This document shows, in pieces, positions 24,696 to 50,102 of a DNA stretch of 50,447 bases. Source of the stretch: Bacillota bacterium (GTDB lineage Bacteria; Bacillota; Clostridia; Saccharofermentanales; Fastidiosipilaceae); NCBI GenBank assembly GCA_030055235.1, contig JASGUW010000087.1, forward strand, positions 1-50,447. Reading direction: 5' to 3'. A program made the translations under genes and the position numbers. The first letter of the stretch is position 1. Each line of letters begins with the position of its first letter. The notes beneath the pieces were generated by a model. It made no database searches. It worked only from the letters and a program-made list of their open reading frames with translations, and was not told the DNA's origin.

Positions 24696-24734
24696 TCGCC
24701 ACCTCCCCATGTGAGCCGGTCTTCTGCTGGGATT

Positions 24735-24773
24735 TTCGCATAAAACATGCAGGGCAGGGAGCATTTATGCGAA
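24735..24773. promoter_or_regulatory. Inverted repeat in the divergent propeller/mannosidase control region
   Basis: TTCGCATAAA (24735-24744) and TTTATGCGAA (24764-24773) are perfect inverted repeats with 19 nt between. The site lies between the two divergent starts, upstream of the -10 at 24798-24806, so one regulator could control both genes. TTTATGCGAA also occurs once upstream of the MsrAB gene (31259-31268). Confidence 0.55.
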
Positions 24774-24797
24774 GTCCGCGCCGCCCACCGCCATGGC

Positions 24798-24806
24798 TGG
24801 TAGAAT
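24798..24806 (+). promoter_or_regulatory. Extended -10 promoter for the alpha-mannosidase gene
   Basis: TGGTAGAAT matches TGnTATAAT with one change and lies 42 nt before the start at 24849. Confidence 0.45.
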
Positions 24807-24848
24807 CAGCGACAGGATCAGCGGACCACAGCTGTGGAGGATTTTACG

Positions 24849-29099: not shown

Positions 29100-30038
29100 T
29101 CAGCCGCCGTTGCCGCCCTGAACGTCGATGTTCGGGTCGCGGAGGGTGACCTTGGCCTCGCTGTCCACTGAGGTCGTGATAAAGACGTTGCCGCCCACCA
29201 CCACATCACTGCCGATGACGGTGTCGCCGCCCAGGATCGTAGCGTTACCGTAAATGGTGACACGATCCTCGATCCGCGGATGGCGGCGCAGGCCACGCAG
29301 CCTCTGCCCACCACGCGTCGAAAGAGCCCCCAGCGTGACACCCTGATAGATCTTGACGTGCTCGCCGATGACGGTGGTCTCGCCGATGACGACGCCGGTG
29401 CCATGGTCAATGAAAAAATACGGGCCGATCCGGGCACCGGGATGGATATCGATGCCGGTCGTCGAGTGGGCGTACTCGCTCAAAATGCGTGGAATCAGGG
29501 GCACCTTGAGGCAGTGAAGCTCATGGGCAATACGGTGGACGGTGACAGCGAGGAAGCCGGGATAGGCCAGGATGATCTCAGAGTAGCCGGTGGCGGCGGG
29601 GTCGCCGGCATAGGCGGCCTCGGCGTCGGTGGCCAGGAGAGCGCGGATGTGAGGGAGTCTTTGCAAAAATTGTTCCGCCACCAACTCCCCCTCCGTTGCC
29701 CGGAAGTTGCAGTCGTCACAGCGGTGGCGGCGCTCATCGGCACTGAGATCCGCCCGCTCCTGGTGGCAGAGCGCCAGTGCGATCTGCTCGGCCAGACGGG
29801 CCCGGACGGCGGCCAGGCGCTCGATGATCTGGGCCGGGGTCGGCAGGCTCGCGTTCCGGTAGACCGTGCGGACGGGATAGCAGCCGGGGAAGAGGAGGGC
29901 GCGCAGCTGTTCCAGGATGTCGATGATGGCGGCGCGGTCGGGGAGGAAGGCGGGGTCGTCGTCGAGGAGTTCGGGGCGCCGGGCATAGTCATCGAGCAGG
30001 GCGGCGCTGAGCTGCTGCAGATCGAAGTTGTCCGTCAT
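29100..30038 (-). CDS. Serine O-acetyltransferase (EpsC/CysE family)
   Basis: 312 residues. It makes O-acetylserine from serine and acetyl-CoA, the first step of cysteine synthesis. After a helical N-terminal half comes the left-handed hexapeptide-repeat domain: [35 protein letters not shown], with catalytic Asp/His pairs in this block (His191, Asp211, His212), then GVTLGALS and [15 protein letters not shown]. An extra segment in the helical half has CHQE (C91) and HRCDDCNF (C107, C110), a possible metal or redox cluster not found in E. coli CysE. The start ATG overlaps the upstream MsrAB stop (ATGA), so sulfur assimilation and methionine sulfoxide repair share an operon. Confidence 0.85.
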
Positions 30039-31126
30039 GCGTCGTCCTCCGTGTCCTCCGGAGCGGGCCGGCCGCAGTCGGGCGTGACGGCCCCGCGCCA
30101 GGCGCCGTAGCCTTCAGCGTCGAGCTCCTCGTAGGGGATGAAACGCAGGGCGGCGGAGTTGATGCAGTAGCGCCGGCCGCCGCTTTCCACAGGCCCGTCG
30201 TCAAAGACATGGCCCAGATGGCTGTCGCCGAGGCGGGAGCGGACCTCCGTGCGGCTGCGGTCGAAGCGCATGTCCTCGTACTCGTCGAGCAGCTCATCAT
30301 GCAGGGGATGGGTAAAGCTCGGCCAGCCGGAGCCGCTGTCGAACTTCGCATCCGAACTGAAGAGGGGCTCGCCCGTCGTGATATCGACGTAGAGGCCGGG
30401 GCGGCAGTTGTCGTGGTAGGCGTTGCGGAAGGGGGCCTCCGTGGCGGCCTCCTGGGTGACCTTGAACTGCTGCGGCGTTAGCAGTTCGCGCAGAGTCTCC
30501 GTGTCCGGGCGGCGGAAGGAGGCCTGGCGGCTGCGGCGCTGCAGGTCGAGGGTCTCGGGGCGGGCAAGCGGGCCCGGTGGCAGCAGGCTGAGGTCGACGG
30601 AGCAGTAGGCCTCCGGGTGTTTCTCGAGATGCTGCTGGTGGAACTGCTCTGCGGGGACCCAGGTTTCCAGAGGGCGGAACTCCGTGGCGATGCGCTCGCT
30701 GCTGCGGTGCCGGACGCGCTCGAAGGCGCTGGTGATGGTCGGGATGTCGTCGTGTTCGATGTAGTAGATCCCACTGCGGAAGCAGCGGCCCCAGTCGTGG
30801 CCCTGATGGTTGCTGCTCGTCGGATCGATGATGCGGAAGAACTGCTCGAGCAGGGCATCGAGCGAAAGCAGGGTCTCGTCGTAGCGGACGCGCACGGCCA
30901 GGGCATGGTCGCCCTGTTCGTAGACCGTGGCGGCGTAGCTGGTGCTGTCGCCGGAGCCGTTGGCATAGCCAGCCTGGGTCGCAGCGACGCCGTAGATGCG
31001 CGACAGGAAGGCTTCGACGCCCCAGAAGTGGCCGCCCGCCAGGACGATTTCGCGCAGATGTTCGGGGCGGTGTTCGACGGCGCGGTTGGGGTTCGCGGGC
31101 AGGTGGCGCTGACTCGTGGGGGACAT
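30035..31126 (-). CDS. MsrA-MsrB fusion with a degenerate MsrA active site
   Basis: 363 residues from ATG 31126, with AAGGAG just upstream. The N-terminal MsrA domain keeps the fold ([23 protein letters not shown]), but the motif that should read GCFWG is GGHFWG. His33 replaces the catalytic Cys (codon CAC). Counting from that site with E. coli MsrA spacing, the Glu94 position is Leu (DHALAV) and Tyr134 is Phe (CFRSG), while Asp129 and Tyr82 are kept. The C-terminal MsrB domain is normal: GSGWPSFT and the catalytic Cys321 in [12 protein letters not shown]. It should reduce methionine-R-sulfoxide. The MsrA half is probably inactive as a reductase or altered in chemistry. There is no signal peptide. 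Confidence 0.88.
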
Positions 31127-31155
31127 GGCTCTCCTTCCGGGCTTTGGGGTTTTGG

Positions 31156-31171
31156 GGCGACAGCTGTCGCC
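31156..31171. promoter_or_regulatory. 16-bp perfect palindrome in the MsrAB leader
   Basis: GGCGACAGCTGTCGCC is a perfect palindrome placed about 10-25 nt downstream of the predicted transcription start on the minus strand, a typical repressor position. Confidence 0.5.
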
Positions 31172-31187
31172 GCGGCATTTTAGCGCC

Positions 31188-31196
31188 ATTCTAGCA
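31188..31196 (-). promoter_or_regulatory. Extended -10 promoter for msrAB-serine acetyltransferase operon
   Basis: The minus strand reads TGCTAGAAT, an extended -10, 62 nt upstream of the MsrAB start. Confidence 0.45.
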
Positions 31197-31213
31197 TCCG
31201 GAAGAGACGGGCG

Positions 31214-31229
31214 TGTCACTGCTGTGACA
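31214..31229. promoter_or_regulatory. Inverted repeat over the -35 region of the MsrAB promoter
   Basis: TGTCAC-tgct-GTGACA is a perfect inverted repeat overlapping the expected -35 region. Its size and spacing recall CRP/FNR-family half-sites (TGTCA-N6-TGACA), but the factor is unknown. Confidence 0.45.
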
Positions 31230-31363: not shown

Positions 31364-33883
31364 CTAATCCCCTCCGGCAAGCGGCAGCGGCATTTCATAA
31401 TAAACGCTCTGTGTCGAGCACGAAGCGAAGTTCTCACCTTCAGGACCGGTCACGCCGGTTCTGCCGTAGATGTACTGGTACCAGCCTTCCAGAATGATCC
31501 TGCTGCCACAGGGACTGATGCTGGCCTGGATGAAATATTTCCCCATCACCATATCCCTGGCGTTTATCGGCCTGTCCAGGATATGTTCGCTAATAGAGAC
31601 AATCTGGCCATCCTCAGCCGAGTATTCGAAATCGTAGGTTCCAGGTAACAGGCGAGTCGAAATCCTGCCATGCGTGTCATCAATTTTGCTGATTTCAAAA
31701 GAACCATCATAAGACGTCTTCCCCTTGCTGACGCGATTCCAGTCCGCGGTTTCCTGTGCGGCCAGGTCCGCCTTGTCCTCAAACCAGTCAGGGAAATTCA
31801 GCTCGGTAATGACAATGCTGTGATTGATCGTCTCTCCCTCATAGGAACCCACCAGCTGATCCAGTGTCGGAAAGCCGCCGCCGATTTGGACTTTGGTCCT
31901 TGGAATCATCAATGCAAAGTCCACCGTGAATTCCGGCTTGTCCTTGTCGGGATCCGCATCGGGTGGGAAGAACTGCAGCTTCTTGGGACTGCCGGCGCAG
32001 ATATAGGCGATCAGGGAGAAGTACACGTTGGTGAGTCCGCTGTCGTCCAGCGTAACGGTCCAGCTCTCCTTGTCGGCCCTGCTCATAAGGTCGGCAAAGC
32101 GGACGGTGTAGCCTCCATACTTTGCTTCTTCGCCCTCCGCTATCGTCTCTTCAATATCCAGGGTAAGCAGCTGATTCAGGTAGTCCTGCGTGGCGACAAG
32201 TCCGTCCCGGTAAAGCTCCTCCGTCCTCCTGATCATTTCGATTTCTGCAGACCGTATCACCGCCTGCAGACGCCTGTTCAGGTACTCCTTATACTCACGG
32301 GTCAGCTCGCCCTTTTCGCGCTCGGTCAGTTCAGTGAGCTGGACATCGCCCCTGATGCCGGCTCGCGACGGCATGTCATCAGCGACAAAGGCCCAGTCCC
32401 TCTGATCCAGCCTCCAGAAGAAATTGCAGAACCAGTCGACTTCCGCCTCCAGCTCCGCCAGGATTGCCTCCTCATCACCGGCATGTTCTTCCAGAATTCC
32501 GATCATCACATCGCGCCACTCTTTATTGCTGCGGCCGCTCCAGCAGCCGTCGAGCTTCGCGTCCCTCTCATGGGCAGGACCCGCAGGTGTGGCGGACAGT
32601 CTGCCTCCCTGGTAATAATCGTTGAAATGCAGGTAGACCTGGTTCACATCCTCCTTCTTCCGCGCAATACTCACTTCAAAGAGCTTGCTGACACTGTAGT
32701 CGAGTATGGAGACGGCAAAACAGGCGATGCCCAGAGCCTTGGACGTGGACTGCCGGATCAGGAATTTGGCAACTTCCTTATACAACTCCAGAATATCCTC
32801 ATCCTTCCGGTCACGATTCATGATGACGGCACCTATCTTGACGCCGGACGCAAATCTGCCCAGGAAGGCGAGCTGGCGGAAAATACCATAGGCCGCCGAA
32901 GTGGCAGCTGAATCGGCACTGTCAGCCAGATCGCCCAGAGTACTGACATTGATGGCATCTTCCAGAGCGCCCAGGATCGTTTCGACCGTAGTGGCATCGG
33001 ATGTTGTTCTGGTCAGCATGTCTCGATGTGGCTCTTTGAATTCGAGATTTGCGATCGTAGAGATGTTCTGGACAAAAAGACCGGCACCCAGCCGAGCGGT
33101 TTCTCTCCAGTAGGCACCATTCCTTTCCACCTGTTCGCGGAGTGCGGCGATCGCCTGCAGCTCATCAATCATGTACGTAGACACACTGATGCCATAGACG
33201 TGTGCATACCTCGAGCCCTCGTCGCGCACCATGAACGCCCCATATGTCGACAGGTGATCGGTGAAGATCACGAGTTCCCCCGCCCCGGCATCCACGTCAA
33301 ACATGACGCTCTCCCATTCGCCGGTCTCTTCGTTTTTATATACGGCTCTGACGCAGTTCGCCGGATCCTCCCCCTCATCACAGAAGGAAGCATCATAGGG
33401 AATGCGAATCGTTATGTAGAGTCCTATTTCTGTCAGATCGCCGAGAGAGATGTCATAGGCATCAATTTTCCATTCCCCATTTTCATCCCGCTCTTCCGGC
33501 AGTTTCTCAACTTTAAGTTCCGTTTCATCATCAATAATAAATTCTGCGAAGTCACCAATGTCGACCGTTACCCCATTCATTTTGGCACTTGGGCTATCGG
33601 GGCTTAGAGCAACTGTTTCCCGGGGTTCGTCAGCAGTCGGTTCGTGATCCCTGGTGCTTGTCTGCACAGTTGCCGTCGTATCTGTTTTTTGGGGCTCACC
33701 AACCGTCACTTCATGTACTCTGCTGCCTGTCCTCACAGGAACGGTTGTCATCGTATCCGTTTTCCCCGTTTGATCGGCTGTGTTTCCGCTCCTTCCAATC
33801 CTTATCAGATCACATCCTGACAGTGGAAGAATCATTGTGAACACCAGAATCAGCGCCAGAATCCTCTTCAAATCTCTCTGCAT
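31364..33883 (-). CDS. Large lipoprotein of unknown function, paralogue A
   Basis: 839 residues, ATG 33883 behind GAGGAGG. A lipoprotein signal peptide (RILALILVFTMILPLSGC) with lipobox LSGC gives Cys24 as the anchor. A Thr/Pro/Glu-rich linker (to about residue 95) repeats DHEPT/VHEVT-like blocks. Next is a beta-rich region (KMNGVTVDIGDFAEFIID..., ending LVIFTDHLSTYGAFMV), then ~400 helical residues with aromatic-rich segments, and a C-terminal domain containing SPCGSR...GRTGVTGPEGENFASC with two Cys that could form a disulfide. I do not recognise the family. A close paralogue lies 312 nt upstream on the same strand with the same architecture, so this is a recent tandem duplication. It should sit on the outer face of the membrane. 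Confidence 0.78.
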   Translation of the reverse strand: MQRDLKRILALILVFTMILPLSGCDLIRIGRSGNTADQTGKTDTMTTVPVRTGSRVHEVTVGEPQKTDTTATVQTSTRDHEPTADEPRETVALSPDSPSAKMNGVTVDIGDFAEFIIDDETELKVEKLPEERDENGEWKIDAYDISLGDLTEIGLYITIRIPYDASFCDEGEDPANCVRAVYKNEETGEWESVMFDVDAGAGELVIFTDHLSTYGAFMVRDEGSRYAHVYGISVSTYMIDELQAIAALREQVERNGAYWRETARLGAGLFVQNISTIANLEFKEPHRDMLTRTTSDATTVETILGALEDAINVSTLGDLADSADSAATSAAYGIFRQLAFLGRFASGVKIGAVIMNRDRKDEDILELYKEVAKFLIRQSTSKALGIACFAVSILDYSVSKLFEVSIARKKEDVNQVYLHFNDYYQGGRLSATPAGPAHERDAKLDGCWSGRSNKEWRDVMIGILEEHAGDEEAILAELEAEVDWFCNFFWRLDQRDWAFVADDMPSRAGIRGDVQLTELTEREKGELTREYKEYLNRRLQAVIRSAEIEMIRRTEELYRDGLVATQDYLNQLLTLDIEETIAEGEEAKYGGYTVRFADLMSRADKESWTVTLDDSGLTNVYFSLIAYICAGSPKKLQFFPPDADPDKDKPEFTVDFALMIPRTKVQIGGGFPTLDQLVGSYEGETINHSIVITELNFPDWFEDKADLAAQETADWNRVSKGKTSYDGSFEISKIDDTHGRISTRLLPGTYDFEYSAEDGQIVSISEHILDRPINARDMVMGKYFIQASISPCGSRIILEGWYQYIYGRTGVTGPEGENFASCSTQSVYYEMPLPLAGGD

Positions 33884-36709: not shown

Positions 36710-37306
36710 GTCTACGCCTCCTCCTGACATCTTCATCAAACAGCAACTTCACTTTATAACGCGAGTCGTAGCCATATATGGTAATTCTGCACAATAGCAT
36801 AGAGGGCAGTGCAGATGAAATTTGAATGAGTATACTACATATACTTATGAATACGAAAAAGTGCATGTAAACACTGGGTAATAAGGAAGCTTGGTCCTGT
36901 TTGCCAGGCGTAGCCGGATGCTGATGCCCATGATGGTCAAGTGCCTTATCCCGCTCCGGATCCTGTGTGGACAAGAGGAGCACAGAGGCAGTATTGGGCT
37001 CCAATACCTCTTGTAAAACGATATATGGCGACCCGCTTCAGAGCCCTGTATCTAATTCATATACCTGTCTGGAAGGTGAACAACTGTCAGAAGCACTTGT
37101 GAGAGTTACCGTATGATGTACAATCAAGTTAACAGGACTCCCCGCACCTCTCAACGATGTGGCCCAGGGGAGACATTTTTTATTTGGGAGAATTAGTGCA
37201 GTTAAGTGCATGCCGGCGATCAGAGCGGTCACGGGATTGACAGGATGACGGGCAATCCGCGAAACTCGTTTCCGGGAGAGCAGATCGAACGAACGGGGTG
37301 AACGGC
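36710..37306. other. Intergenic region with duplicated control block
   Basis: 36760-36804 repeats the block found at 33936-33980 (minus sense, control region of lipoprotein B). The rest, between divergent lipoprotein B and the URO-D gene, shows no ORF or clear promoter; a TTGACA at 37237-37242 lacks a matching -10. Confidence 0.45.
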
Positions 37307-38554
37307 ATGGATAGACTTCAAGACCACGATCGGAAGATACTGAGGGAGCTCGCGCGCCGACAGCTGGAGCTCGCGGCTGATGAACGAAACCGCGAGCGTC
37401 GGCAGCGGATTCAGGCGATGCACAGCCTCAAGCCCGTGCGCCCGCCCGTCTGGATTGACGAAATTCCCTGGCATGAGATGGACATCGACGGCGAACTCGA
37501 GCTCCACTGCGAGAGCGCAACAGCGCGGGAGATCGAGTGCCAGATCCGGAGGACACTCTTTCGCTGGAAGCATTTTCCTGTCGACATGGTCGTCGAGGAC
37601 GCCCTCTATGTGACGAAGGCTTATGAGGATTCTGGCATTGGCGTCCAGGTCCAGGAGACCATTCTGCAGACGGATGCTGCGAATCCCATCGTTTCGCATC
37701 GGTATGAGGATCAGCTCGACAGCTGGGAAAAGCTCGAGAAACTCCAGATTCCCATCATCCGGGCGTGCCCGGATCTGGATGCCGCGCGACTTGAGTGGAT
37801 GCGGGAGATTTTCGACGGCGTGATCCCCGTCCGTCTGCGCGGTCGTGCCATCTATCACGCGCCATGGGATGTGATTCCGAGGCTGCGTGGCGTCGAGGCC
37901 TGTCTGATCGACATGCTGGAGCGGCCGGACTTCACCCACGCCATGATCGGCCGCTTCACCGACATCGCCGTAGCCCGCTACGAGCAGATGGAAGCCCAGG
38001 GTCTTTTGGAGATCCATCTCCCGTCCCTGCACTGCACGCCGCCTTACACCACGGACCTGCCTGCGCCCGACTATGACGGCGGCCCGGCGCGGTTCCGGGA
38101 CATCTGGTTCCGCGGGATGGCGCAGCTGCTGTCGTCGGTGTCACCGACTTTGCATAATGAATATGATATCGCCTACATGCGCCGCCTGAGCGATCGCTGC
38201 GGGCTCGCCTACTACGGCTGCTGTGAACCGCTCGACCGCATGATTCCCTATCTGAAGAAGCTGCCCAATCTGCGCAAAATCGGCGTCAGCCCCTGGGCGG
38301 ACAAGCGCTCCTCGGCCGAACAGATCGGCGGCGACTATGTCTATGCCTGTAAACCCAACCCCGCCGCCGTGGCCACCCGCCTGGACGCCGCCGCCGTGCG
38401 TGCGGAAATCCGCGAGGTCATCGAGCTCTGTCTTGAACACGGCTGTCCCTATGAGTTCGTGCTGAAGGACATCAGCACGGTCGGCAGGCGCCCCGGGAAC
38501 CTGATCGAGTGGGCCCGCGTGGTGATGGAAACGATTGACAGCTACTACGGCTGA
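37307..38554 (+). CDS. Uroporphyrinogen decarboxylase (URO-D) family protein
   Basis: 415 residues from ATG 37307, with GGGGTG 6 nt upstream; GTG 37298 is a weaker alternative. Features of the URO-D/MtaA-like TIM barrel include PVWIDEIPWHEM near the N-terminus, IPVRLRGRAIYHAPWDVIPRLRGVEACLIDML mid-protein, GLAYYGCCEPLDRMIPYLKKLPNLRKIGVSPWAD, and YVYACKPNPAAV near the end. The group is not the heme enzyme; members near sugar or corrinoid genes are often methyltransferases or unknown. GCCEP supplies Cys/His-type ligands that could bind zinc as in MtaA-type methyltransferases. No corrinoid protein lies nearby, so its partner is unknown. It stands alone and overlaps the next gene tail-to-tail by 10 nt. 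Confidence 0.75.
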   Translation: MDRLQDHDRKILRELARRQLELAADERNRERRQRIQAMHSLKPVRPPVWIDEIPWHEMDIDGELELHCESATAREIECQIRRTLFRWKHFPVDMVVEDALYVTKAYEDSGIGVQVQETILQTDAANPIVSHRYEDQLDSWEKLEKLQIPIIRACPDLDAARLEWMREIFDGVIPVRLRGRAIYHAPWDVIPRLRGVEACLIDMLERPDFTHAMIGRFTDIAVARYEQMEAQGLLEIHLPSLHCTPPYTTDLPAPDYDGGPARFRDIWFRGMAQLLSSVSPTLHNEYDIAYMRRLSDRCGLAYYGCCEPLDRMIPYLKKLPNLRKIGVSPWADKRSSAEQIGGDYVYACKPNPAAVATRLDAAAVRAEIREVIELCLEHGCPYEFVLKDISTVGRRPGNLIEWARVVMETIDSYYG

Positions 38555-39960: not shown

Positions 39961-39977
39961 GCTTTTACGTTGGTTGG

Positions 39978-40193
39978 TGGTCAAGTTAGCCTGGTATCCA
40001 AATGGTTTTTTGGATTAGACGCTATTTTGACCAGAAACAGGCTCTTCGTGGTCAAAGTAGCCTGGTATCCAAATGGTTTTTTGGATTACGCGCTGTTTTG
40101 ACCAGAAACAGGCCCTTCGTGGTCAAAGTAGGCTGAAATCCAAATCGTTTTTGCCATTACACGCTGTTTTGACCCTGCGCGCCGTGCGCGCGA
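39978..40193 (+). repeat. Tandem array 3 of the 71-bp hairpin repeat (three units)
   Basis: GGATTA at 40012 and 40083 and the variant CCATTA at 40154 keep the 71-bp period. The stem arms match array 1 in the same orientation. The last unit is degenerate and ends in CTGCGCGCCGTGCGCGCG, the same GC-rich variant loop found in the second unit of array 1. It sits between two co-directional genes. Confidence 0.92.
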
Positions 40194-40881: not shown

Positions 40882-41721
40882 ATGGCGGCACCCAAACTGG
40901 ACATTGGGATCGTGACGCGCAGCTTTCCGGGACTGGACAATGCAGCGACGGCCCGCTTTCTGGCAGATAACGGCTTCGCCACCACGGAACTGTGCCTGGT
41001 TCAGACCGACTCCAATCGCTGGCACTACAACAATCAGGTGGACCTTGAAGGGCTGGATGGCGTCGGACTTCGCCGCATCGCTGACATCTACCGTGCTGCC
41101 GGCATTACGGTTTCAGCTTTTGGCATCTTTACCAACCTTATTGAAAAGGACGATGCGAAGCGCCGCGCCAATCTGGAGAATTTTATCCGCTGCATGGAAT
41201 ATGCTTCAGAGGCCGGCATCGACATTGTCGCGACCGAATGCGGCTTCGATCCCGAATCGCGCGGTGTGATTGCCTCGGAGTATGAGACACGCTATGGCCG
41301 CCTCATCGAATCGCTTAGCTGCCTGACCGCGGAGGCCGAACGCATCGGCATCAGCATTGCGCTTGAACCCTGTGTCCTCGATGTCGTTCCTTCCGCCAAA
41401 CGCATGGCTGACACCATCCGTCAGGTCGGCTCCGAGCGCCTGGGTGTCCTGCTCGACCCCGCCAATCTCATCGCAAACTCCTCGGAACGCGACATGTTCC
41501 ATTATCTTGCCGATCATATTCTGTATTTCCATGGCAAGGACCGCCGCGTCAACGACAGCTACGGCCGTGTTGTCGGTGACGGCGACATTGATTGGCCGCT
41601 TTTCCTTAAGCTCTACCATGAACTCACTCCCGGACGTCCCTTCATTCTGGAGTACGTCAATATCGATAACTGCCTCGAAATCCGCGACCGCCTTCTGGCC
41701 TATAACGCCCGGCTCCCCTGA
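40882..41721 (+). CDS. Sugar phosphate isomerase/epimerase family protein (TIM barrel), first of the 40.9-48.7 kb locus
   Basis: 279 residues from ATG 40882, with GAGGAGGG upstream; a TTG at 40864 is inside that site. The fold has SFPGLDNAATARFLADNGFATTELCL at the N-terminus, VATECGFD mid-barrel, ISIALEPCVLDVVPSAKR with Glu, LGVLLDPANLIA with Asp, YFHGKDRRVND with His/Asp and FILEYVNIDN with Glu. These are the four metal-site positions of tagatose-3-epimerase-like enzymes. It probably epimerises or isomerises a keto-sugar with a divalent metal in the cytosol. It opens a locus with a second TIM barrel and two Gfo/Idh/MocA dehydrogenases, the usual partners in 3-keto-sugar chemistry. Confidence 0.82.
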   Translation: MAAPKLDIGIVTRSFPGLDNAATARFLADNGFATTELCLVQTDSNRWHYNNQVDLEGLDGVGLRRIADIYRAAGITVSAFGIFTNLIEKDDAKRRANLENFIRCMEYASEAGIDIVATECGFDPESRGVIASEYETRYGRLIESLSCLTAEAERIGISIALEPCVLDVVPSAKRMADTIRQVGSERLGVLLDPANLIANSSERDMFHYLADHILYFHGKDRRVNDSYGRVVGDGDIDWPLFLKLYHELTPGRPFILEYVNIDNCLEIRDRLLAYNARLP

Positions 41722-41830: not shown

Positions 41831-42631
41831 ATGATCAAACTGGGTGTTAACTCCGTACTGTTCAAAACCCTGCCCTTCTCCGAAGCCGCACGTCTTATCT
41901 CGCTCTGTGGCTACGATGGCCTGGAGATTTCGGCTATCCGCGGCATGTGCGAGCATCTGAATCTCGACAGCTGGGAGCGACAGAAAGACGAACTGCTCGC
42001 CATCATGGCCGACAATGAGCTCGCATTCCTGGCCACGGAGGTAGCCGCCCTCGATCCCGAGCGCCTGCTGCCGGCCTTTGCCGCCTGTCAGGGCCTGGGC
42101 ATCCCGGTCGTCAACGTCGGTTCGGGCGGGAGGCAGGATGACCAGGCCTCGCTCGACGCCGCCATCGACCTGCTCGCGCAAATGGCTGACGCCGCCGCCC
42201 TTCACGGTGTCACCCTCTGTGTGAAAGCCCACGTCGGCGCCGCCATCCACGACACGGCCACCACCCTCTACGCCATCGACAAACTCAAGGGTGTCCAGGG
42301 CTTCGGCATCGACATGGATCCCTCCCATGTTTACCGCGCCAGTGAACTGCCCGAAGAGGCTCTTCCGCATGTCCTCCCGGCGACGCGCCATGTGCATATT
42401 CGCGATTGCAAAGGACGCGGCCCTTCGCCCGGAGTCCCGCAGCTGCAGACCTGCGGCCGTGGCGATATCAACCTGGATGCCTACCTCAAAACCATGGTTG
42501 CGGGAAATTACCAGGGGCCGGTCAACCTCGAAATCATCGGTCCCGAGCTCACGATGGAAGAGGCCGTGACCATCGCCGCCGAAAGCTACGGTTACATGAA
42601 TGCGATCCTCCGACGCTACAATGCCCGCTGA
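41831..42631 (+). CDS. Sugar phosphate isomerase/epimerase family protein (TIM barrel), second copy in the locus
   Basis: 266 residues, ATG 41831 behind GAGGAG. The barrel motifs are LISLCGYDGLEISAIRG, TEVAALDPERL, TLCVKAHVGAAIHDTATTL, GFGIDMDPSHVYRA, HVHIRDCKGRG and PVNLEIIGPE. The position usually held by Glu in ALEPH-type motifs is Lys (VKAHVG), a variation I recall in one branch of the family. The last ligands (Asp, His, Glu) are present. It follows the first barrel by 109 nt and is only weakly similar to it, so the two are likely different steps of one pathway rather than duplicates. Confidence 0.8.
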   Translation: MIKLGVNSVLFKTLPFSEAARLISLCGYDGLEISAIRGMCEHLNLDSWERQKDELLAIMADNELAFLATEVAALDPERLLPAFAACQGLGIPVVNVGSGGRQDDQASLDAAIDLLAQMADAAALHGVTLCVKAHVGAAIHDTATTLYAIDKLKGVQGFGIDMDPSHVYRASELPEEALPHVLPATRHVHIRDCKGRGPSPGVPQLQTCGRGDINLDAYLKTMVAGNYQGPVNLEIIGPELTMEEAVTIAAESYGYMNAILRRYNAR

Positions 42632-42669: not shown

Positions 42670-44049
42670 ATGAAGAAACCCAATCTGCTTTTCTTCGGCA
42701 TTGACAGTCTGCGCCGCGACCACATGAGTCTCTATGGCTACCGGCGCCTGACGACCCCGCACATCGACCGCTATCTGGAAAAAGACGGTGTGGTCTTCGA
42801 GCAGTGCTTCAGTCCCAGCATCCCGACGACGCCGGGGTATGCATCCATGCTGACCGGCATGGACTGCTTTACGACCTCAGTCGTCGCCCTGCGCCATGAG
42901 GGTGAGATCCGCCCGGGCATCCGCACGCTGCCGGAGATTCTCCGCGCGGAGGGCTATGACAGCAGCTGCGTCGGCTTCACCGGCAATGCCGGCGGCCGCG
43001 GCTTCGACGTCTATCTTGACTACGAGGGCTGGGGCGCCGCCGCCGATGGCTTTGCGCACAAGGCGGAAAACCTCCATAAAGTGGCTGCCAAAGAGCTCGA
43101 CCGCCTGGCCGCTTCCGACCGCCCCTGGTTTTTATTCCTGCGCCATATGGATCCGCACTCACCCTATCTGCCGCCCGAACCCTTTCACCGCATGTTCCAT
43201 CAGACGGATCCCTGTGATCCCGCCAACAAATCCCTGGACCCGGTCTATGAATTCAAGCCCTTCTGTGACTACTTCAGGAGCTGGTTCCCGCCCGGCATCA
43301 CCGACAAGGACTATGTCATCGCCCAGTATGACGCCGCCGTCGCCTACATGGACACCACGATCCAGCTCCTGCTCGAAAAGCTCCGCGCCATGGGCCTGGA
43401 GGAGGATACTCTGGTCGTCTTCACCTCCGACCATGGCGAAACACTCTACGATCACGACTGCTACTTCGACCACCACGGCCTTTACGATCCGACACTTGTG
43501 GTGCCCTTCGCCTATCGCCGGGCCGGCCACACCAGCGCCATCCGCATCGGCGACATCTGCGAGCACAAGGATATCGTGCCAACCCTGCTCGCCGAGCTCG
43601 GCATAAAGGTGCCGGACCCCTTCGAAGGCCGCGACCTCAGCGTTCTGCGCCACGGTGGCACGGTCGAGCAGCGCCCTGAGCACTACATTACGGAGGCCAC
43701 CTGGATGCGCAAGCACGGCTGGCGCACCCCGCAGTGGAAGCTCATCGTCGCCCTGGAGCCGGACTTTCACTTCAAGCCCGAAGTCGAGCTCTACGACCTC
43801 ATTCGCGATCCCGGAGAGAACTGCAACGTCGCCGAAAAGTACCCGGAGGTCACAAGCTGCCTGCGGGCCCGGATGGAACGCCATATTGCTCAGCGGGAGG
43901 CGGCCACCGGTGACCCCAATCCGATGTACACCAATCTCAACTGGGCCGGCGGCGGCATGAGTCCGTTCGCCAGTTCGCAGGAAGCCTACGACAGCCTTCA
44001 TATCGGCGACGCCGCGGCTGCCCGCAGGCTGCAGGAGGACGATGAATAA
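42670..44049 (+). CDS. Sulfatase-like alkaline-phosphatase-superfamily hydrolase with Thr at the nucleophile site
   Basis: 459 residues from ATG 42670, AGGAG 8 nt upstream. The N-terminal metal motif is FGIDSLRRDHMSLYGY. Where sulfatases have C/S-x-P-x-R, this protein has PTTPGYASMLTG: aligning CTPSRASLLTG puts Thr53 at the formylglycine position and Tyr57 at the Arg. It therefore cannot form formylglycine. Thr is the nucleophile in related phosphodiesterases and phospho-transferases. Metal ligands SDHGETLYDHD and a following HHGLYDP are present. It may hydrolyse a phospho- or sulfo-ester or act as a transferase. There is no signal peptide. It lies between a TIM-barrel gene and a dehydrogenase. 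Confidence 0.8.
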   Translation: MKKPNLLFFGIDSLRRDHMSLYGYRRLTTPHIDRYLEKDGVVFEQCFSPSIPTTPGYASMLTGMDCFTTSVVALRHEGEIRPGIRTLPEILRAEGYDSSCVGFTGNAGGRGFDVYLDYEGWGAAADGFAHKAENLHKVAAKELDRLAASDRPWFLFLRHMDPHSPYLPPEPFHRMFHQTDPCDPANKSLDPVYEFKPFCDYFRSWFPPGITDKDYVIAQYDAAVAYMDTTIQLLLEKLRAMGLEEDTLVVFTSDHGETLYDHDCYFDHHGLYDPTLVVPFAYRRAGHTSAIRIGDICEHKDIVPTLLAELGIKVPDPFEGRDLSVLRHGGTVEQRPEHYITEATWMRKHGWRTPQWKLIVALEPDFHFKPEVELYDLIRDPGENCNVAEKYPEVTSCLRARMERHIAQREAATGDPNPMYTNLNWAGGGMSPFASSQEAYDSLHIGDAAAARRLQEDDE

Positions 44050-44101
44050 AAGTCAGGCGAAGGCCGCGGCTGAGGACCGTCAGCCGCAGGGAGGAGGAGC
44101 C

Positions 44102-45118
44102 ATGCAGAGGGTAGCGGTTATTGGGATGGGTCCCATTGGGAATACCCATGCGAAAGTCTACCGGGAGACAGAAGAAGCCCGGCTCGTGGGCGTCTGCGAC
44201 CGCATTCCGGAGCGCGCCCAGCAGGCGGCCAAAGCCCATGGCGTGGCGTCATGGACCGATGCCGCCCGGATGCTGGCTGAGCTGAAACCGGATATCGTCA
44301 GTGTGGCGACGGGGGGCTATGAATACTCGAGCGACCACTACGAACCGACCGTCCAGGCGCTGCGGGCGGGATGTCACGTGCTTTGCGAAAAACCTATCTC
44401 AAATGATATTGGGCTGGCGACCCGGATGGTGCAGGTGGCCCGGGAAGAGGGACGCTGCTTTGGCATTGATTTCAACCATCGATTCACTCCCGCCGCACGT
44501 CAGGCGAAGGCCTGGCAGGAAGCCGGCCGCATCGGCGAGCTGCTCTTTGTCAACATGGCGCTGTGGATCGGCAAGTTCGGCGACTTCGAAACGCCCTTCT
44601 ACCATCTGAAAGCTCTAAATCCGCACAGTGTTGATTTTGTCCGCCACTTCGCCGGGGACATTGAGCGCGTGCAGTGTTTCGCCATGAAGCAGGGGACGCG
44701 CAATATCTGGTCGACACAGTCGATGAACCTGAAGTTCGCCTGCGGGGCGGTCGGCCACATCACGAGCTCCTATGACATCGCCCGCGGCCATCCGATGGAG
44801 CGCTGCGAAGTCGCCGGCGTCAACGGCCGCCTGGTGGTCGAGGACATGTGGCACCGGGCGACGCTCTATCCGGCGGAGACCTGGCTCAAGGAAGAGTACA
44901 GTAACCCGATTTTTGGCGGCTACGGCCAGTTCTATGACACCTTTAAAGATCGCATTCAGACCTTTGTCCGTCAGGTGAACGCCGGGGTCAGCCCGGAAGA
45001 GATTGACGGCTCGGGGCTGGACGGTCTGGAGGCCAGCCGCGTGATCCACGCCGCCATTGAGTCGCTCCGGCGCGATGGCGAGCCGGTATATGTCAAGGAG
45101 GTGATTGACGGATGTTGA
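44102..45118 (+). CDS. Gfo/Idh/MocA family oxidoreductase, copy 1
   Basis: 338 residues from ATG 44102, behind GGAGGAGG; the in-frame ATG at 44042 overlaps the previous stop and is less likely. The Rossmann motif is VIGMGPIGNTHAKVY, and the family CEKPISNDIG (E-K-P with the catalytic Lys) follows at about 95-104. A middle helix contains FNHRFTPAARQAK. It should oxidise or reduce a cyclic sugar or inositol-type substrate with NAD(P). It is a paralogue of the 46128 gene: both have GYE-x7-Y-PT-ALxAGxHVL-EKPISND. Two dehydrogenases plus two TIM barrels suggest oxidation, epimerisation and re-reduction of one sugar. Confidence 0.85.
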   Translation: MQRVAVIGMGPIGNTHAKVYRETEEARLVGVCDRIPERAQQAAKAHGVASWTDAARMLAELKPDIVSVATGGYEYSSDHYEPTVQALRAGCHVLCEKPISNDIGLATRMVQVAREEGRCFGIDFNHRFTPAARQAKAWQEAGRIGELLFVNMALWIGKFGDFETPFYHLKALNPHSVDFVRHFAGDIERVQCFAMKQGTRNIWSTQSMNLKFACGAVGHITSSYDIARGHPMERCEVAGVNGRLVVEDMWHRATLYPAETWLKEEYSNPIFGGYGQFYDTFKDRIQTFVRQVNAGVSPEEIDGSGLDGLEASRVIHAAIESLRRDGEPVYVKEVIDGC

Positions 45119-46023
45119 ACGATCCTCACAGTGAGCTGCTGCCGGCTTCACGTTATTTCACACCGGAACAGGGTCCGATCCGGGTCCTCTGCCTGCAGGA
45201 CCACGGCCGTGTGGGCATGCATGCCCATGAGTTCATGGAACTCGTGCTGATCGCGGAAGGGGCGACGCTGCACAGCTTCGGCGGCCAGACGCAGATCATG
45301 ACCGCCGGCGATTTCTTTGTCATTCTGCCGGGAGACCAGCACAGCTACATTGATACCAAGCGCACCGCCCTCTATAACTGCCTCTTCATGCCCGAGCTCC
45401 TGGAACAGCATCGTGAGCGGCTGGGCCGGATTCCCACGCTGGACTTTCTCTATGCCGCTGACGACAAGCGCCAGGAACTGCATAAGGTCCGCCTGGATGT
45501 GATTTCGCGGCAGCGGGTGACGCGCCTGCTCGACGAGATGATCCGCGAAAGTCAGGAGCGGCGGACGGGCTGGCAGACGGAGATGGAGGCTCTCTTCCTT
45601 TCTCTGCTGGTCATCTATGCCCGCATGGCGGATGAGTCGCGGGTGGAACTTGAGGAAAACAGTGCTCATTACCGCCAGGTGATGCAGGCGGTCGAGTTTA
45701 TCGAAAACAACTACCAGAACAACTGTCAGATGGAGGATGTGGCGGCAGCCGCCGGTCTTTCGCCCTCCTATCTGACCCGCCAGTTCAGGGCCTATCTTGG
45801 CAGTACCCCCATCGCCTACGCCCGCCAGTACCGCGTCAACCGTGCGGCCGAGCTCCTGCTGGAAACGGATGCGCCGCTCAGTGCGATTGCGAGCGCCACC
45901 GGCTACCGCTCGCTCAGCGTCTTTTCCCGCCAGTTCCGCCAGCTGACGGGGCAGTCGCCGTCCGTGTTCCGCCGGGTGGGGAAGGCGGCCCGCCTCAACG
46001 ATCCCCATATCACACCCGGCTGA
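45112..46023 (+). CDS. AraC family transcriptional regulator
   Basis: 303 residues, ATG 45112 overlapping the previous gene by 7 nt; AAGGAGGTGA upstream is a near-perfect ribosome-binding site. The N-terminal cupin sensor has HAHEFMELVLIAEG and FFVILPGDQHSY. The C-terminal region has two helix-turn-helix units: MEDVAAAAGLSPSYLTRQFRAYLGSTPIAYARQYRV and SAIASATGYRSLSVFSRQFRQLTGQSP. It likely senses a sugar derivative and controls the 40882-48682 genes. It lies inside the operon rather than beside it. Confidence 0.88.
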   Translation: MLNDPHSELLPASRYFTPEQGPIRVLCLQDHGRVGMHAHEFMELVLIAEGATLHSFGGQTQIMTAGDFFVILPGDQHSYIDTKRTALYNCLFMPELLEQHRERLGRIPTLDFLYAADDKRQELHKVRLDVISRQRVTRLLDEMIRESQERRTGWQTEMEALFLSLLVIYARMADESRVELEENSAHYRQVMQAVEFIENNYQNNCQMEDVAAAAGLSPSYLTRQFRAYLGSTPIAYARQYRVNRAAELLLETDAPLSAIASATGYRSLSVFSRQFRQLTGQSPSVFRRVGKAARLNDPHITPG

Positions 46024-46127
46024 GCGGGTGGCAGCGCCTGTGGAGCACGTCCGCCGCAGACAACTGACAACAAAAAAGCGCCGGCATTTTGAGCCCTTAT
46101 ATTTAAGCCCTTATAAAGGAGACAGCT

Positions 46128-47231
46128 ATGGCACTTAAGATCGCAATCGTAGGCATGGGCGGTATCGGCCACACCCACGCCGCCTGCTATCAGGCAAACC
46201 CGCTCGCCGAACTTGTCGCCGTCTGTGATGTCCGTCAGGATCGCCGTGAAGAGGCGGCCCGGCGCTTCGGGGTTCCCGGTCTGGCGAGCCTGGCCGAAGT
46301 CCTTGAGCGCTTCCCTGAGGTCGACATCATCGACATCACCACCTCCGGCTATGAGAACGGCTCCTGGCACTATGTGCCGACGATGGAGGCTCTCGCCGCC
46401 GGCAAGCATGTCCTGGTCGAGAAGCCGATTTCAAACGATGTTCGCGAGGCCCGGGAGATGGTGCGCTTCGCCGCCGAAAAGAAGGTCTACCTGGGCTGCA
46501 ATCTGAACCACTACTTCACGGACACGGCCGCCCGCGGCACCGAACTCATCGCCCAGGGCCGCATCGGCGAGCCCGTCTATCTGCTGCACAAGATGGGCTT
46601 CAACGGCGGCGAGACCTCCTACCGCGGTGCCGGCCCCGAGCGCTGGCACCGTCCCTACTCCCATCTGAAGGCATTTCTGGCACATCCCTTCTCCGTCATG
46701 CGCCACTTCGGCGGCGACATCACCCATGTCCAGGCCCACCTGGCCAAGCCCGGCGTGCGGAAAACCGCCGACGACCTGATGTACTCGATCAACTCCATCC
46801 ACCTGCGCTTTGAGAACGGCTCGACGGGTTATCTGCTCTCACAGCGCGGCGATGCGATGTTCGGCCTGGGCGGCTGGTGGAGCTTCGAGATGGCCGGTAC
46901 CCGCGGCACCTTCGTCATCGAAAACTGCGTTGAGCGCCTGACCTTCTGGGATGCCACGACAGAGAAGGACTCGATGTCTTCGCCGACTCCGGACGAGGTC
47001 CTGGATACCGGCATCACCGACTTCGGCGCCACCTTCCCCAATCGCCTGAATGCCTTCCTGGAGGACGTCACGAACGGCGTCCCGCGAGAGTTCCTGCGTG
47101 CCTCCGGCCGCGATGCCCTGGCGACACTCGAATACACCTTCGCCGCCATCCGCTCCTTTGAAGAGGGCGGTGCGGTGATCCGCCCCGAGCCGCTGCCGAA
47201 TCTTCACGGCGACATCACCCGCCCGATTTAG
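46128..47231 (+). CDS. Gfo/Idh/MocA family oxidoreductase, copy 2
   Basis: 367 residues, ATG 46128 behind AAGGAG. The Rossmann motif is IVGMGGIGHTHAACY, then GYENGSWHYVPTMEALAAG and VEKPISNDVREAR with the catalytic Lys, and LNHYFTDTAARGTEL. A C-terminal segment with SQRGDAMFGLGGWWSFEM fits the family's beta-sheet domain. The substrate is presumably the same sugar type as for the 44102 protein. A 104-nt gap after the AraC gene could hold a promoter; none is convincing. Confidence 0.85.
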   Translation: MALKIAIVGMGGIGHTHAACYQANPLAELVAVCDVRQDRREEAARRFGVPGLASLAEVLERFPEVDIIDITTSGYENGSWHYVPTMEALAAGKHVLVEKPISNDVREAREMVRFAAEKKVYLGCNLNHYFTDTAARGTELIAQGRIGEPVYLLHKMGFNGGETSYRGAGPERWHRPYSHLKAFLAHPFSVMRHFGGDITHVQAHLAKPGVRKTADDLMYSINSIHLRFENGSTGYLLSQRGDAMFGLGGWWSFEMAGTRGTFVIENCVERLTFWDATTEKDSMSSPTPDEVLDTGITDFGATFPNRLNAFLEDVTNGVPREFLRASGRDALATLEYTFAAIRSFEEGGAVIRPEPLPNLHGDITRPI

Positions 47232-47245
47232 CGGGATGATGATGC

Positions 47246-48682
47246 ATGCGAAGCTCCCTCTGCCGGCCGAACGTCCTGCTGATCCTGGGCGACCAGCACC
47301 ATGCCGACTGTGTCGGCCTGGCGAATCTCCATGCGCCGCCGGACGTCTCCGTCCAACAGGCCGCCTCCACGCCCCGCCTGGACCGCCTCGGTCGGGAGGG
47401 CGCCGTCTTCACCCGCGCCTACACACCTGCGCCTGTCTGTGCCCCGGCACGTCAGGCGCTCCTGGCCGGCCGGCCGCCGGAGAGCTTCGGCGCCCTCTGG
47501 AATCCGAACTTCATCCCGACGCCGACGCTCGAGCCCGAGCCGGGGCAGCACGTCGCCGCTCTGCGTCGGGCGGGCTACCGCAGCTGCCTTATCGGCAAGT
47601 GGAACAGCTCACTGGAGCACAGCCCGGCCGACTTTGGCTTCGACCAGCATATCGATCCCGCCCTCTATCAGCGGGAACTCGCTAAGGCGCATCCCGACCT
47701 TGAGTGGACCGGCGGCTGGCTGGGCGAAAGCAGCCCGCTGGCGCCGGAGGAGACAGCGGTCGGCTGGGGCGCCAGGCAGGTGGAGGGGCGCCTAAGGGAC
47801 TTCGCAAAAACAAAAACTCCCTGGTTCATTCGCTGGGACCTGGCTGAGCCGCATCTGCCCTGCCGTCCGCCCGCCCGCTTTATGGAGCTCTTCAAAAACA
47901 AGGACGTGCCGCCCTGGGCAGGCTTTGACGACCCGCTTGAGATGAAACCCTATATTCAGCGCCAGCAGCTGCTGAACTGGGGACTGGAGCGCCATGCGCA
48001 TGACTGGGACTGGTGGCAGCCGGTCGTCCGCCGCTACCTGGCCGTGATCGCGGAGATTGACGCGGCCGTGGGTCAGGTGCTGGATGTGCTTGAAGAGCTT
48101 GGGCAGGAGCGGGACACCCTTGTCATCTACAGCTCGGACCACGGTGATCTCTGCGGCGCCCATGGCATGCTCGACAAGCACTATGTCCTTTATGACGATG
48201 TGACGCGGGTGCCGCTGCTGCTGCGCTGGCCTGCCGCTATTCCGGGGGCTGTGGTGTCGGCGGAGCTCGTCTACAACATGTTTGATATTGCTGCCAGCAT
48301 CATTGATGCCTGCGGGCTTGATGATGCCGATCCCGGTTACGGGCAGTCCCTGCTGCCGCTGGCATCTGGGGAGGGGAGAGGCGGCCGCAGTGCGGTCGTC
48401 ATGGCGGCGCATGGCCAGCAGTTTGGCCTTTATACCCAGCGTGCGCTGCGCACGGTTGACTGGCTCTATGTCTGGAATCTGACGGATATCGACGAACTCT
48501 ATGACTGCCGCCGTGATCCGGGGCAGCGCGTCAACCGTATCGCCGACCCCGGCTGTGCGACAATTCTGGCGGACCTGCGCCGGCGGCTGCATGAGGAGCT
48601 CCGGCAGCGCGGCGATCCCTTTGTCGGATGGACTGACAGGCAGCTGCTCGAGGGGCGGCAGGTGGACCTGAGTTTGCGTTAG
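47246..48682 (+). CDS. Sulfatase with canonical C-x-P-x-R site
   Basis: 478 residues, ATG 47246, 14 nt after the dehydrogenase stop, with a weak GGGAT ribosome site. The metal motif is LLILGDQHHADCVG. The sulfatase signature PVCAPARQALLAG contains Cys65 in C-A-P-A-R, suited for conversion to formylglycine. Later motifs are YSSDHGDLCGAHGMLDKHYVLYDDVTRVPL with Asp/His ligands and the Lys. It removes sulfate from a carbohydrate or other ester. The maturase (anSME or FGE) is not in the window. No signal peptide is visible, so it would act in the cytosol on imported material. It pairs with the Thr-type relative at 42670. Confidence 0.85.
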   Translation: MRSSLCRPNVLLILGDQHHADCVGLANLHAPPDVSVQQAASTPRLDRLGREGAVFTRAYTPAPVCAPARQALLAGRPPESFGALWNPNFIPTPTLEPEPGQHVAALRRAGYRSCLIGKWNSSLEHSPADFGFDQHIDPALYQRELAKAHPDLEWTGGWLGESSPLAPEETAVGWGARQVEGRLRDFAKTKTPWFIRWDLAEPHLPCRPPARFMELFKNKDVPPWAGFDDPLEMKPYIQRQQLLNWGLERHAHDWDWWQPVVRRYLAVIAEIDAAVGQVLDVLEELGQERDTLVIYSSDHGDLCGAHGMLDKHYVLYDDVTRVPLLLRWPAAIPGAVVSAELVYNMFDIAASIIDACGLDDADPGYGQSLLPLASGEGRGGRSAVVMAAHGQQFGLYTQRALRTVDWLYVWNLTDIDELYDCRRDPGQRVNRIADPGCATILADLRRRLHEELRQRGDPFVGWTDRQLLEGRQVDLSLR

Positions 48683-48752: not shown

Positions 48753-50102
48753 TTGACACGATTTCATGACATGACAAAGGGATCTGTCTGGCGCAGTCTG
48801 CTGATGTTCTCCATTCCCATCATGATTTCCAATCTGCTGCAGTCTACGTATCACGCAGTGAATATCTTCTTTGTCGGCCGCTTTACCGGTACAGAGAGTC
48901 TGGCCGCAGTGTCCGTATGCGGGCCTGTTGTGAATGTGATGATCATCACACTGTCCGGCATGTCAACAGGTGTACTGGTGGTGGTGAGCGGTCTGCTGGG
49001 TGCCGGAGACAGAAAACAGGCACAGGAGGCGGCACATACCAGCGTGGCCCTGTACCTGCTGATGGCGCTGCTGACAAGCGGAATGGGGCTTATGTTGGTT
49101 CCGTGGATATTGAAGCTGGTGCAGACGCCGCCTGCAGCCATGCCGGAAGCCAAACGCTACTTGTATACGCTGTTTGCCGGTACCGTTTTTCTGTTCGGAC
49201 ACAACCTGGTGGGTGCGCTGCAGCGCGGCCTGGGGAACGCCAGGGCATCCATGTCTTTGGTAATCATCTCATCCCTGACAAACATCCTTCTGGATGCCGT
49301 CTTCATTGCATGGCTCGGCATGGGGGCCTTTGGTGCCGCGCTGGGCACAGTGCTTGCCCAGATGCTGGCCTTTCTGATAGGCGCAGTGCTGTTCACCAGA
49401 GCGGGAGGTACACTCAGCTTTTCGTTCGCCAAGTTTGGCTTTCATCGGAAACATCTTAAAAACATACTGCTGTTTGGCATACCCACGGCAATTAATGAGG
49501 TCATGGTCAACATGGCCATGCTCACCGTCAGTGGTGTGGCGAACAGCTTTGGACTGGCATCCAGTGCAGCGTACGGCGTGGGGTCACGTATTAACAGCCT
49601 GGCCTGCTTCCCTGATGAAACGATGAGCCAGACCATGTCGGCTTTTGCGTCTCAGAATGCCAGCGCTGGCAGGAGGGAGCGCACACTGGAAGGACTGCGG
49701 AAGGCCATTCTCCTTTCAGTGAGCGTCGCCCTGGTCATGGCTGTGCTGGTCTTTGTGTTTGCATACGACTTTTCAGCCGTTTTTGATTCGAATCCAGAGG
49801 TTATTGCGCAGGCTGTGGCGTTTCTGCGGGTGACGGTCTGGTCCTACCCGTTGTTTGCCGCAGTGGGTCCGCTTATTGGATTTATCCGCGGCACGGCAAA
49901 TGTGGAGGCCAGCCTGCTGGTGGGTGTAGTTGCGCAGCTGTGCTGCCGCATCCCGGCGGCGTTTGTCTTTACCCGCTTCATGGGTTTCCCCGGCGTGGGG
50001 ATGGCGGTTCTTGTGGGGCCGCTGGTCAGTGTCGCCATCTATCTCTGGTATATCTTCACACGACGCTGGCACAGGGGGCTTCTGCGTGTCGAGAAGATGT
50101 AA
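48753..50102 (+). CDS. MATE family efflux transporter
   Basis: 449 residues starting at TTG 48753, 6 nt after GGGGAGGAG; an internal ATG at 48771 is less favoured. Twelve TM segments are visible, in two matching halves: MTKGSVWRSLLMFSIPIMISNLLQSTYHAVNIFFVGRFTG at the start, and HLKNILLFGIPTAINEVMVNMAMLTVSGVANSFG in the second half. It exports organic cations, drugs or metabolites with a Na+ or H+ gradient. The gene has lower GC and more AT-ending codons than its neighbours, suggesting more recent acquisition. It is probably not part of the sulfatase locus. Confidence 0.88.
   Translation: MTRFHDMTKGSVWRSLLMFSIPIMISNLLQSTYHAVNIFFVGRFTGTESLAAVSVCGPVVNVMIITLSGMSTGVLVVVSGLLGAGDRKQAQEAAHTSVALYLLMALLTSGMGLMLVPWILKLVQTPPAAMPEAKRYLYTLFAGTVFLFGHNLVGALQRGLGNARASMSLVIISSLTNILLDAVFIAWLGMGAFGAALGTVLAQMLAFLIGAVLFTRAGGTLSFSFAKFGFHRKHLKNILLFGIPTAINEVMVNMAMLTVSGVANSFGLASSAAYGVGSRINSLACFPDETMSQTMSAFASQNASAGRRERTLEGLRKAILLSVSVALVMAVLVFVFAYDFSAVFDSNPEVIAQAVAFLRVTVWSYPLFAAVGPLIGFIRGTANVEASLLVGVVAQLCCRIPAAFVFTRFMGFPGVGMAVLVGPLVSVAIYLWYIFTRRWHRGLLRVEKM

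Follow-up and report, generated by a model that had tools for sequence, protein, structure and literature searches.

Dehydrogenases of the Gfo/Idh/MocA type occur together with xylose-isomerase-like TIM barrels in the bacterial inositol pathway (IolG, IolI and IolE), and Gfo dehydrogenases with TIM-barrel partners are likewise found in the 3-keto-glycoside pathways (the BT_2158 and BT_2159 families, and DgpA). To our knowledge, the iol pathway contains neither a sulfatase nor a sulfotransferase, and we know of no sulfate genes in the 3-keto-glycoside operons. Enzymes of both kinds are encoded by a gene array on contig JASGUW010000087.1 of a Bacillota bacterium of the Fastidiosipilaceae (assembly GCA_030055235.1), where they are accompanied by two sulfatase-fold proteins, one with Thr (SulfThr, or P0001) and one with Cys (SulfCys, or P0004) at the catalytic position. 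The whole stretch of 50,447 nucleotides that was analysed is called the window below. In related loci the array is tied to the synthesis of 3'-phosphoadenosine 5'-phosphosulfate (PAPS) and to a dedicated sulfotransferase, an association that is new here. We give an even chance to the reading that a sulfated cyclitol or sugar is oxidised, isomerised and reduced in the cytoplasm by the enzymes of the array.

The best 80 of at least 587 P0001 relatives, obtained by scanning bacterial and archaeal genomes and showing 60–90% identity, were used to evaluate the array elsewhere; they were picked for closeness to P0001 and many of their loci are incomplete, while 49 extend beyond 4 kb to either side of the P0001 relative and are termed full loci. 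P0001 relatives occurred in Clostridia, Paenibacillus, Cohnella, Planctomycetota, Lentisphaerae, Verrucomicrobia, Armatimonadetes, Chloroflexi and Spirochaetes. When gene presence was scored by tblastn, TIM2 was found at 72/80 loci, a GfoA-type gene at 73/80, GfoB at 53/80, SulfCys at 30/80 and TIM1 at 20/80; among full loci, TIM2 and the GfoA-type gene were each present in 47/49. The order and content of the array are conserved across phyla, and it is more than a chance grouping. A preliminary description of the locus had recognised the Thr- and Cys-type pair (P0001 T53 and P0004 C-A-P-A-R, both PF00884) as well as two Gfo/Idh/MocA enzymes (PF01408 twice) and two TIM barrels (PF01261 twice, just upstream of the part it covered); all of these were confirmed, and the co-location on which it had staked its reading held in other genomes, as the TIM2 and GfoA-type counts show.

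Occurrence was nonetheless patchy, since P0001 was present in only 2/38 genomes of the window's kin and in 2/398 genomes drawn from its phylum, with the window genome counted in each case. Such scatter, along with 60% identity between phyla, suggests that the array has spread horizontally. On the P0001 tree, the sulfotransferase changed state at least 4 times, the kinase of adenosine 5'-phosphosulfate (APS) 3 times and SulfCys 7 times.

Synthesis of PAPS was indicated by an APS kinase in 23 of the 80 related loci, mostly of Paenibacillus and Cohnella, where it lies beside a second Thr-type paralog; both genes occurred together in 20/49 full loci, and the APS kinase alone in 3/49. The kinase scored 202.3 bits against the TIGR00455 cut-off of 138.7, and in a plasmid record of Paenibacillus cellulositrophicus with identical gene order it is named cysC. 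Some related loci also hold CysD, CysN or a fusion of APS kinase with an inositol-monophosphatase-family (CysQ-like) domain, as at L038:197–1588 (PF01583 and PF00459), through which PAPS could be made and 3'-phosphoadenosine 5'-phosphate (PAP) cleared by a single protein; a CysQ-like gene at L074 falls in the same cluster as this fusion. At L089:12765–14761 and similar Paenibacillus sites, the gene after the APS kinase encodes a second Thr-type paralog of the sulfatase fold, whose active site reads P-T-E-V-A-H. One guess is that this paralog could replace a PAP phosphatase.

A small, dedicated sulfotransferase was found at 17/80 related loci (PF13469 scores of 56 and 58 bits, where the cut-off is 27). 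The best VIA-align matches of its model were PAP-containing structures of human tyrosylprotein sulfotransferases (5wrj; Z 15.4, root mean square deviation 3.8 over 206 residues), and sulfotransferase domains from the curacin and olefin synthases came next (Z 13.7 and 13.4). At genome level, 50 of the genomes that hold the 80 loci were searched; 25 had this subfamily (24 at E ≤ 1e-60, and one fragment), of which 13 carried it outside the fetched P0001 locus. The same query that finds these 25 positives returned 0/398 genomes of the window's phylum at E ≤ 1e-60, a comparison in which the 50 array-bearing genomes span more phyla than the 398. APS kinase was present in 19/25 genomes with the sulfotransferase and 6/25 without it (Fisher p = 0.0005, kinship ignored). 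Judging by the PAPS-synthesis and sulfotransferase genes of relatives, sulfate seems to be both attached and removed within the wider family. A strict exclusion between sulfotransferase and SulfCys was considered, as only 2/10 full loci with the sulfotransferase held SulfCys; it was refuted at genome level by 10/50 genomes that hold both (Fisher p = 0.045, uncorrected).

The sulfatase fold of P0001 was evident from its PF00884 match (148 bits) and from an AlphaFold2 model (predicted local distance difference test 91.4), for which the top VIA-align match was a sulfatase, 6hr5 (Z 35.2, root mean square deviation 3.0 over 349 residues), and the nearest folds were true sulfatases and phosphonate monoester hydrolases. 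Its active-site stretch is P52-T53-T54-P55-G56-Y57 where formylglycine sulfatases have C/S-x-P-x-R; when aligned with P0004, T53 stands opposite the catalytic C65, Y57 opposite R69 and S13 opposite Q17. T53 was invariant in 80/80 orthologs and 21/21 near-full-length paralogs, as were H262 and the putative metal residues D12, H163, D254, H255 and H268, and therefore the family is hardly catalytically dead. Y57, in place of the signature Arg, was present in 80/80 orthologs. With an invariant Thr53 and neither the Gln nor the Arg of sulfatases, P0001 is, as judged from these alignments, not a formylglycine sulfatase, and would use a different nucleophile. The position of the sulfatase Lys was aligned differently by two methods, MAFFT setting Asp267 opposite Lys311 of SulfCys and HMMER setting His268 opposite the Lys of phosphonate monoester hydrolases; for this reason, the claim for SulfThr is restricted to loss of the Lys.

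The alkaline phosphatase superfamily includes phosphodiesterases with a Thr nucleophile, and by analogy with these P0001 may act on a phosphate ester. The first metal motif of P0001, D12-S13 (S in 79/80 orthologs, T in 1/80), departs from the [DE]-[DQ] pattern given in the SulfAtlas paper (PMC5066984). That paper states that oxidation of Thr would give a ketone and not formylglycine, leaves Thr proteins outside the sulfatases that it counts, and holds that those in the PF00884 seed are not countable as sulfatases without evidence.

The situation was different for SulfCys, which has both the signature (C65-A-P-A-R69) and the DQ motif (D16-Q17). D16, Q17, R69, H203, D298 and H299 were retained in 31/31 aligned rows, and C65 in 30/31, with Ser in the remaining one. 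The window genome encodes one protein above the cut-off for the anaerobic sulfatase maturase TIGR03942 (366.7 against 349.45 bits), while the aerobic formylglycine-generating enzyme family, PF03781, had no match there; in another genome (G045) a maturase above the same cut-off adjoins SulfCys (L125:5541–8026). As the tested catalytic positions are kept and a maturase is encoded, SulfCys is very probably a working formylglycine sulfatase. There were 15 sulfatase-domain matches in the window genome, 14 of them above cut-off.

No match to PF13469, PF01583 (APS kinase) or PF01507 (CysD/CysH type) was found in the window genome, which is 94% complete. Sulfation in the window organism was ruled out on this ground, and its version of the array should therefore only remove sulfate. 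Pairs of sugar-importer permeases were present at 14/26 full loci with SulfCys, 2/23 without it and 0/10 with the sulfotransferase (kinship ignored); taken with the missing PAPS genes, this distribution suggests that the window version takes sulfate off a compound acquired from outside.

Among the enzymes likely to act on the ring, TIM1 was identical in 21/21 aligned rows at E162, D192, H217 and E257, which we take to be epimerase-type ligands. The nearest solved relative of TIM2 by profile was IolI (1i60, E = 1.4e-11), and the best NCBIfam score of GfoA was for inositol 2-dehydrogenase (117 bits, with GfoB at 90.5). The preliminary description had suggested an inositol derivative as one substrate, and these similarities lend that direction some weak support, but both scores lie far below the cut-off of 355. 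Its other proposal, a pathway for 3-keto-glycosides, was not borne out, because the two NCBIfam glycoside/disaccharide 3-dehydrogenase families, BT_2158 and BT_2159, were missed by far (GfoA 28.7 and 41.5 bits, GfoB 38 and 37, against cut-offs of 750 and 650). Its doubly substituted substrate, and removal of a phospho-type ester by the Thr enzyme, stay conjectural. What stands of its interpretation is the contrast between Thr and Cys, the gene set and the co-location; the PAPS and sulfotransferase genes of relatives had been overlooked.

The simplest reading of the ring chemistry, given these sequence similarities, is oxidation, isomerisation and reduction of a cyclitol or sugar. The reactions, substrates and directions proposed for it are read from gene content, conservation, motifs, folds and co-occurrence. 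GfoA and GfoB would form a ketone on a ring compound, either an inositol-like cyclitol or a sugar, and later reduce it, while the IolI-like TIM2 and the epimerase-like TIM1 would shift or invert the centre adjacent to the ketone. SulfCys, with formylglycine installed by the anaerobic maturase, would hydrolyse a sulfate ester, and SulfThr may attack another ester of this compound, phospho-type or otherwise, with Thr53 as its metal-activated nucleophile. In the window organism the pathway would be catabolic and would remove sulfate; in relatives, this core would be coupled to PAPS synthesis and the sulfotransferase, such that sulfate could also be added. The array enzymes have no obvious signal peptide at their translation starts, as judged by eye, and were therefore treated as cytoplasmic.

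Several observations weigh against this pathway. TIM2 lacks one metal-site Glu of IolI, having Lys132 in 72/72 aligned rows opposite that residue, presumably a metal ligand, in the profile alignment, and it may catalyse something else. No NCBIfam cut-off was reached by any of P0001–P0006, such that no array enzyme has a characterised close relative, and the substrate class consequently rests on fold-level likeness. A phospho-type ester for SulfThr is argued by analogy only. Desulfation is not part of every version, since SulfCys was present at the 30/80 loci given above and in 28/50 searched array-bearing genomes. The association tests ignore phylogeny, and an importer gene was not seen at the window's locus.

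Among other explanations, the sulfate may be a transient intracellular handle, added to a ring hydroxyl by the sulfotransferase or by another step that uses PAPS, kept while the ring is worked on by the Gfo and TIM enzymes, and removed by SulfCys or by elimination; the Thr enzymes would then act on a sulfo or phospho group by transfer or hydrolysis, and organisms without PAPS would start from ready-made sulfate esters. This is consistent with genome G068 (L120), where sulfotransferase, SulfCys and TIM2 lie side by side in one fragment, with L068 and L076, where CysN, CysD, APS kinase, sulfotransferase, TIM2, SulfThr, GfoA, GfoB and SulfCys share one region, and with genome G046, where the sulfotransferase is divergent from APS kinase-CysQ, CysD and CysN. 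The curacin and olefin synthase domains, the closest folds after the tyrosylprotein sulfotransferases, activate a hydroxyl for elimination. However, SulfCys had no match in 15/25 of the sulfotransferase-bearing genomes, the argument draws on gene context, and the acceptor is not told by the fold ranking; we consider a transient handle unlikely. The same low standing is given to its boldest form, in which PAPS-dependent sulfation would take the usual role of phosphorylation in a widespread cytoplasmic sugar or cyclitol pathway by marking or activating the substrate, and the Thr proteins would be novel enzymes of sulfatase descent that transfer sulfo or phospho groups.

It is quite improbable that the family is divided into producers, whose sulfotransferase version yields a sulfated cyclitol or sugar, and other bacteria that import and desulfate it with SulfCys, a reversible redox-isomerase core serving both. 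The importers' occurrence with SulfCys and never with the sulfotransferase at full loci would fit such a division, as would a window genome that has SulfCys and no PAPS genes, but both genes were found in 10/50 genomes, they adjoin one another in G068, and the importer association takes no account of kinship. Plain sulfur scavenging, in which the sulfatase frees sulfate, CysC, CysD and CysN feed cysteine synthesis and the other genes degrade the carbon skeleton, accords with the ordinary role of APS kinase, CysD and CysN in sulfate assimilation and with the importers that go with SulfCys, but is very doubtful because it leaves the dedicated sulfotransferase unexplained, and because the window genome, without a PF01583 or PF01507 match, cannot assimilate sulfate in this way.

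The features of the locus are given in Table 1. The seven genes from TIM1 to SulfCys are arranged in series on the plus strand, with intergenic gaps of -7 to 109 bases. GfoA begins with ATG, preceded by GGGAGGAGGAGCC. It is uncertain whether the MATE transporter belongs to the operon; in a near relative (L016) the genes after SulfCys are instead those of an FGGY kinase and a rhamnose isomerase.

Table 1. Positions in the window of the array genes and the adjoining transporter gene
Feature	Position	Strand	Description
TIM1	40882..41721	+	Xylose-isomerase-like TIM barrel (PF01261); putative epimerase-type metal ligands retained
TIM2	41831..42631	+	IolI-like TIM barrel (PF01261); Lys132 replaces the IolI Glu
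SulfThr (P0001)	42670..44049	+	Sulfatase fold, with Thr53 in place of the catalytic Cys (PF00884, 148 bits)
GfoA	44102..45118	+	Gfo/Idh/MocA NAD(P)-dependent dehydrogenase (PF01408, E = 3e-28)
AraC-family regulator	45112..46023	+	PF12833 and PF02311; overlaps the end of GfoA and sits between both Gfo genes
GfoB	46128..47231	+	Second Gfo/Idh/MocA dehydrogenase (PF01408, E = 1e-25)
SulfCys (P0004)	47246..48682	+	Very probable formylglycine-type sulfatase, C65-A-P-A-R69 (PF00884, 131 bits, and PF16347)
MATE-family transporter	48753..50102	+	PF01554; 70 bases downstream of SulfCys

Neighbouring genes gave no recurring clue to the substrate. Among 20 large neighbours from 12 related loci there were two FGGY sugar kinases (L016 and L075), one rhamnosidase and one other glycoside hydrolase, and nothing was common to most loci; ten neighbours of SulfCys or sulfotransferase genes lying outside the locus were mostly housekeeping genes. 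Five gut loci (CL16) have GH18-like genes, named by eye from sequence, and a Pfam URO-D gene lies near the array in L030. By title, the gene set was not found described in the open-access literature, where absence is weak evidence; the pathway and its substrate seem to be undescribed.

Elsewhere in the window, about three imperfect tandem copies of a unit of approximately 70 bases (ggtcaaagtagcctggtatccaaatggttttttggatta...) were seen by eye at 39975–40180, between a DUF559 gene and TIM1, and the Rfam search of the window returned no matches. A 418-residue protein at 37298–38554 has no Pfam or NCBIfam match, and a gene 43% identical to it lies near the array in L034. On the minus strand, fused peptide methionine sulfoxide reductase domains (PF01625 and PF01641) are encoded at 30035–31219, while large open reading frames of 839, 637 and 479 residues, at 31364–33883, 24765–26678 and 23325–24764 respectively, had no Pfam match.

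If the proposed pathway is correct, an unnamed route for a sulfated ring compound is common to many phyla of bacteria from soil, gut and sediment. The sulfatase annotations in the array are half wrong, since formylglycine chemistry is not open to its most conserved 'sulfatase'. The dedicated sulfotransferase would help in finding the compound, and the array can be tested now because it is present in cultured strains of Paenibacillus (P. castaneae and P. rhizosphaerae, for example) and Cohnella. When compared with the SulfAtlas S1 sulfatases and phosphonate monoester hydrolases, SulfThr shares the fold and the C-terminal domain and SulfCys the tested catalytic positions, but SulfThr has Thr, Tyr and Ser where those enzymes have Cys/Ser, Arg and Gln/Asp. 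The array shares a Gfo dehydrogenase and a xylose-isomerase-like TIM barrel with the inositol pathway, but is set apart from it by a GfoA score of 117 against 355 bits and by the Lys of TIM2 in place of the IolI Glu; similarly, its Gfo dehydrogenases and TIM-barrel partners resemble those of the 3-keto-glycoside pathways, but score 29–42 bits where the cut-offs are 650–750. Finally, the sulfotransferase of relatives shares its fold with the curacin and olefin synthase domains, to which tyrosylprotein sulfotransferases are slightly preferred by Z score; those domains form part of polyketide synthases, whereas the enzyme described here stands alone beside sugar-type enzymes.

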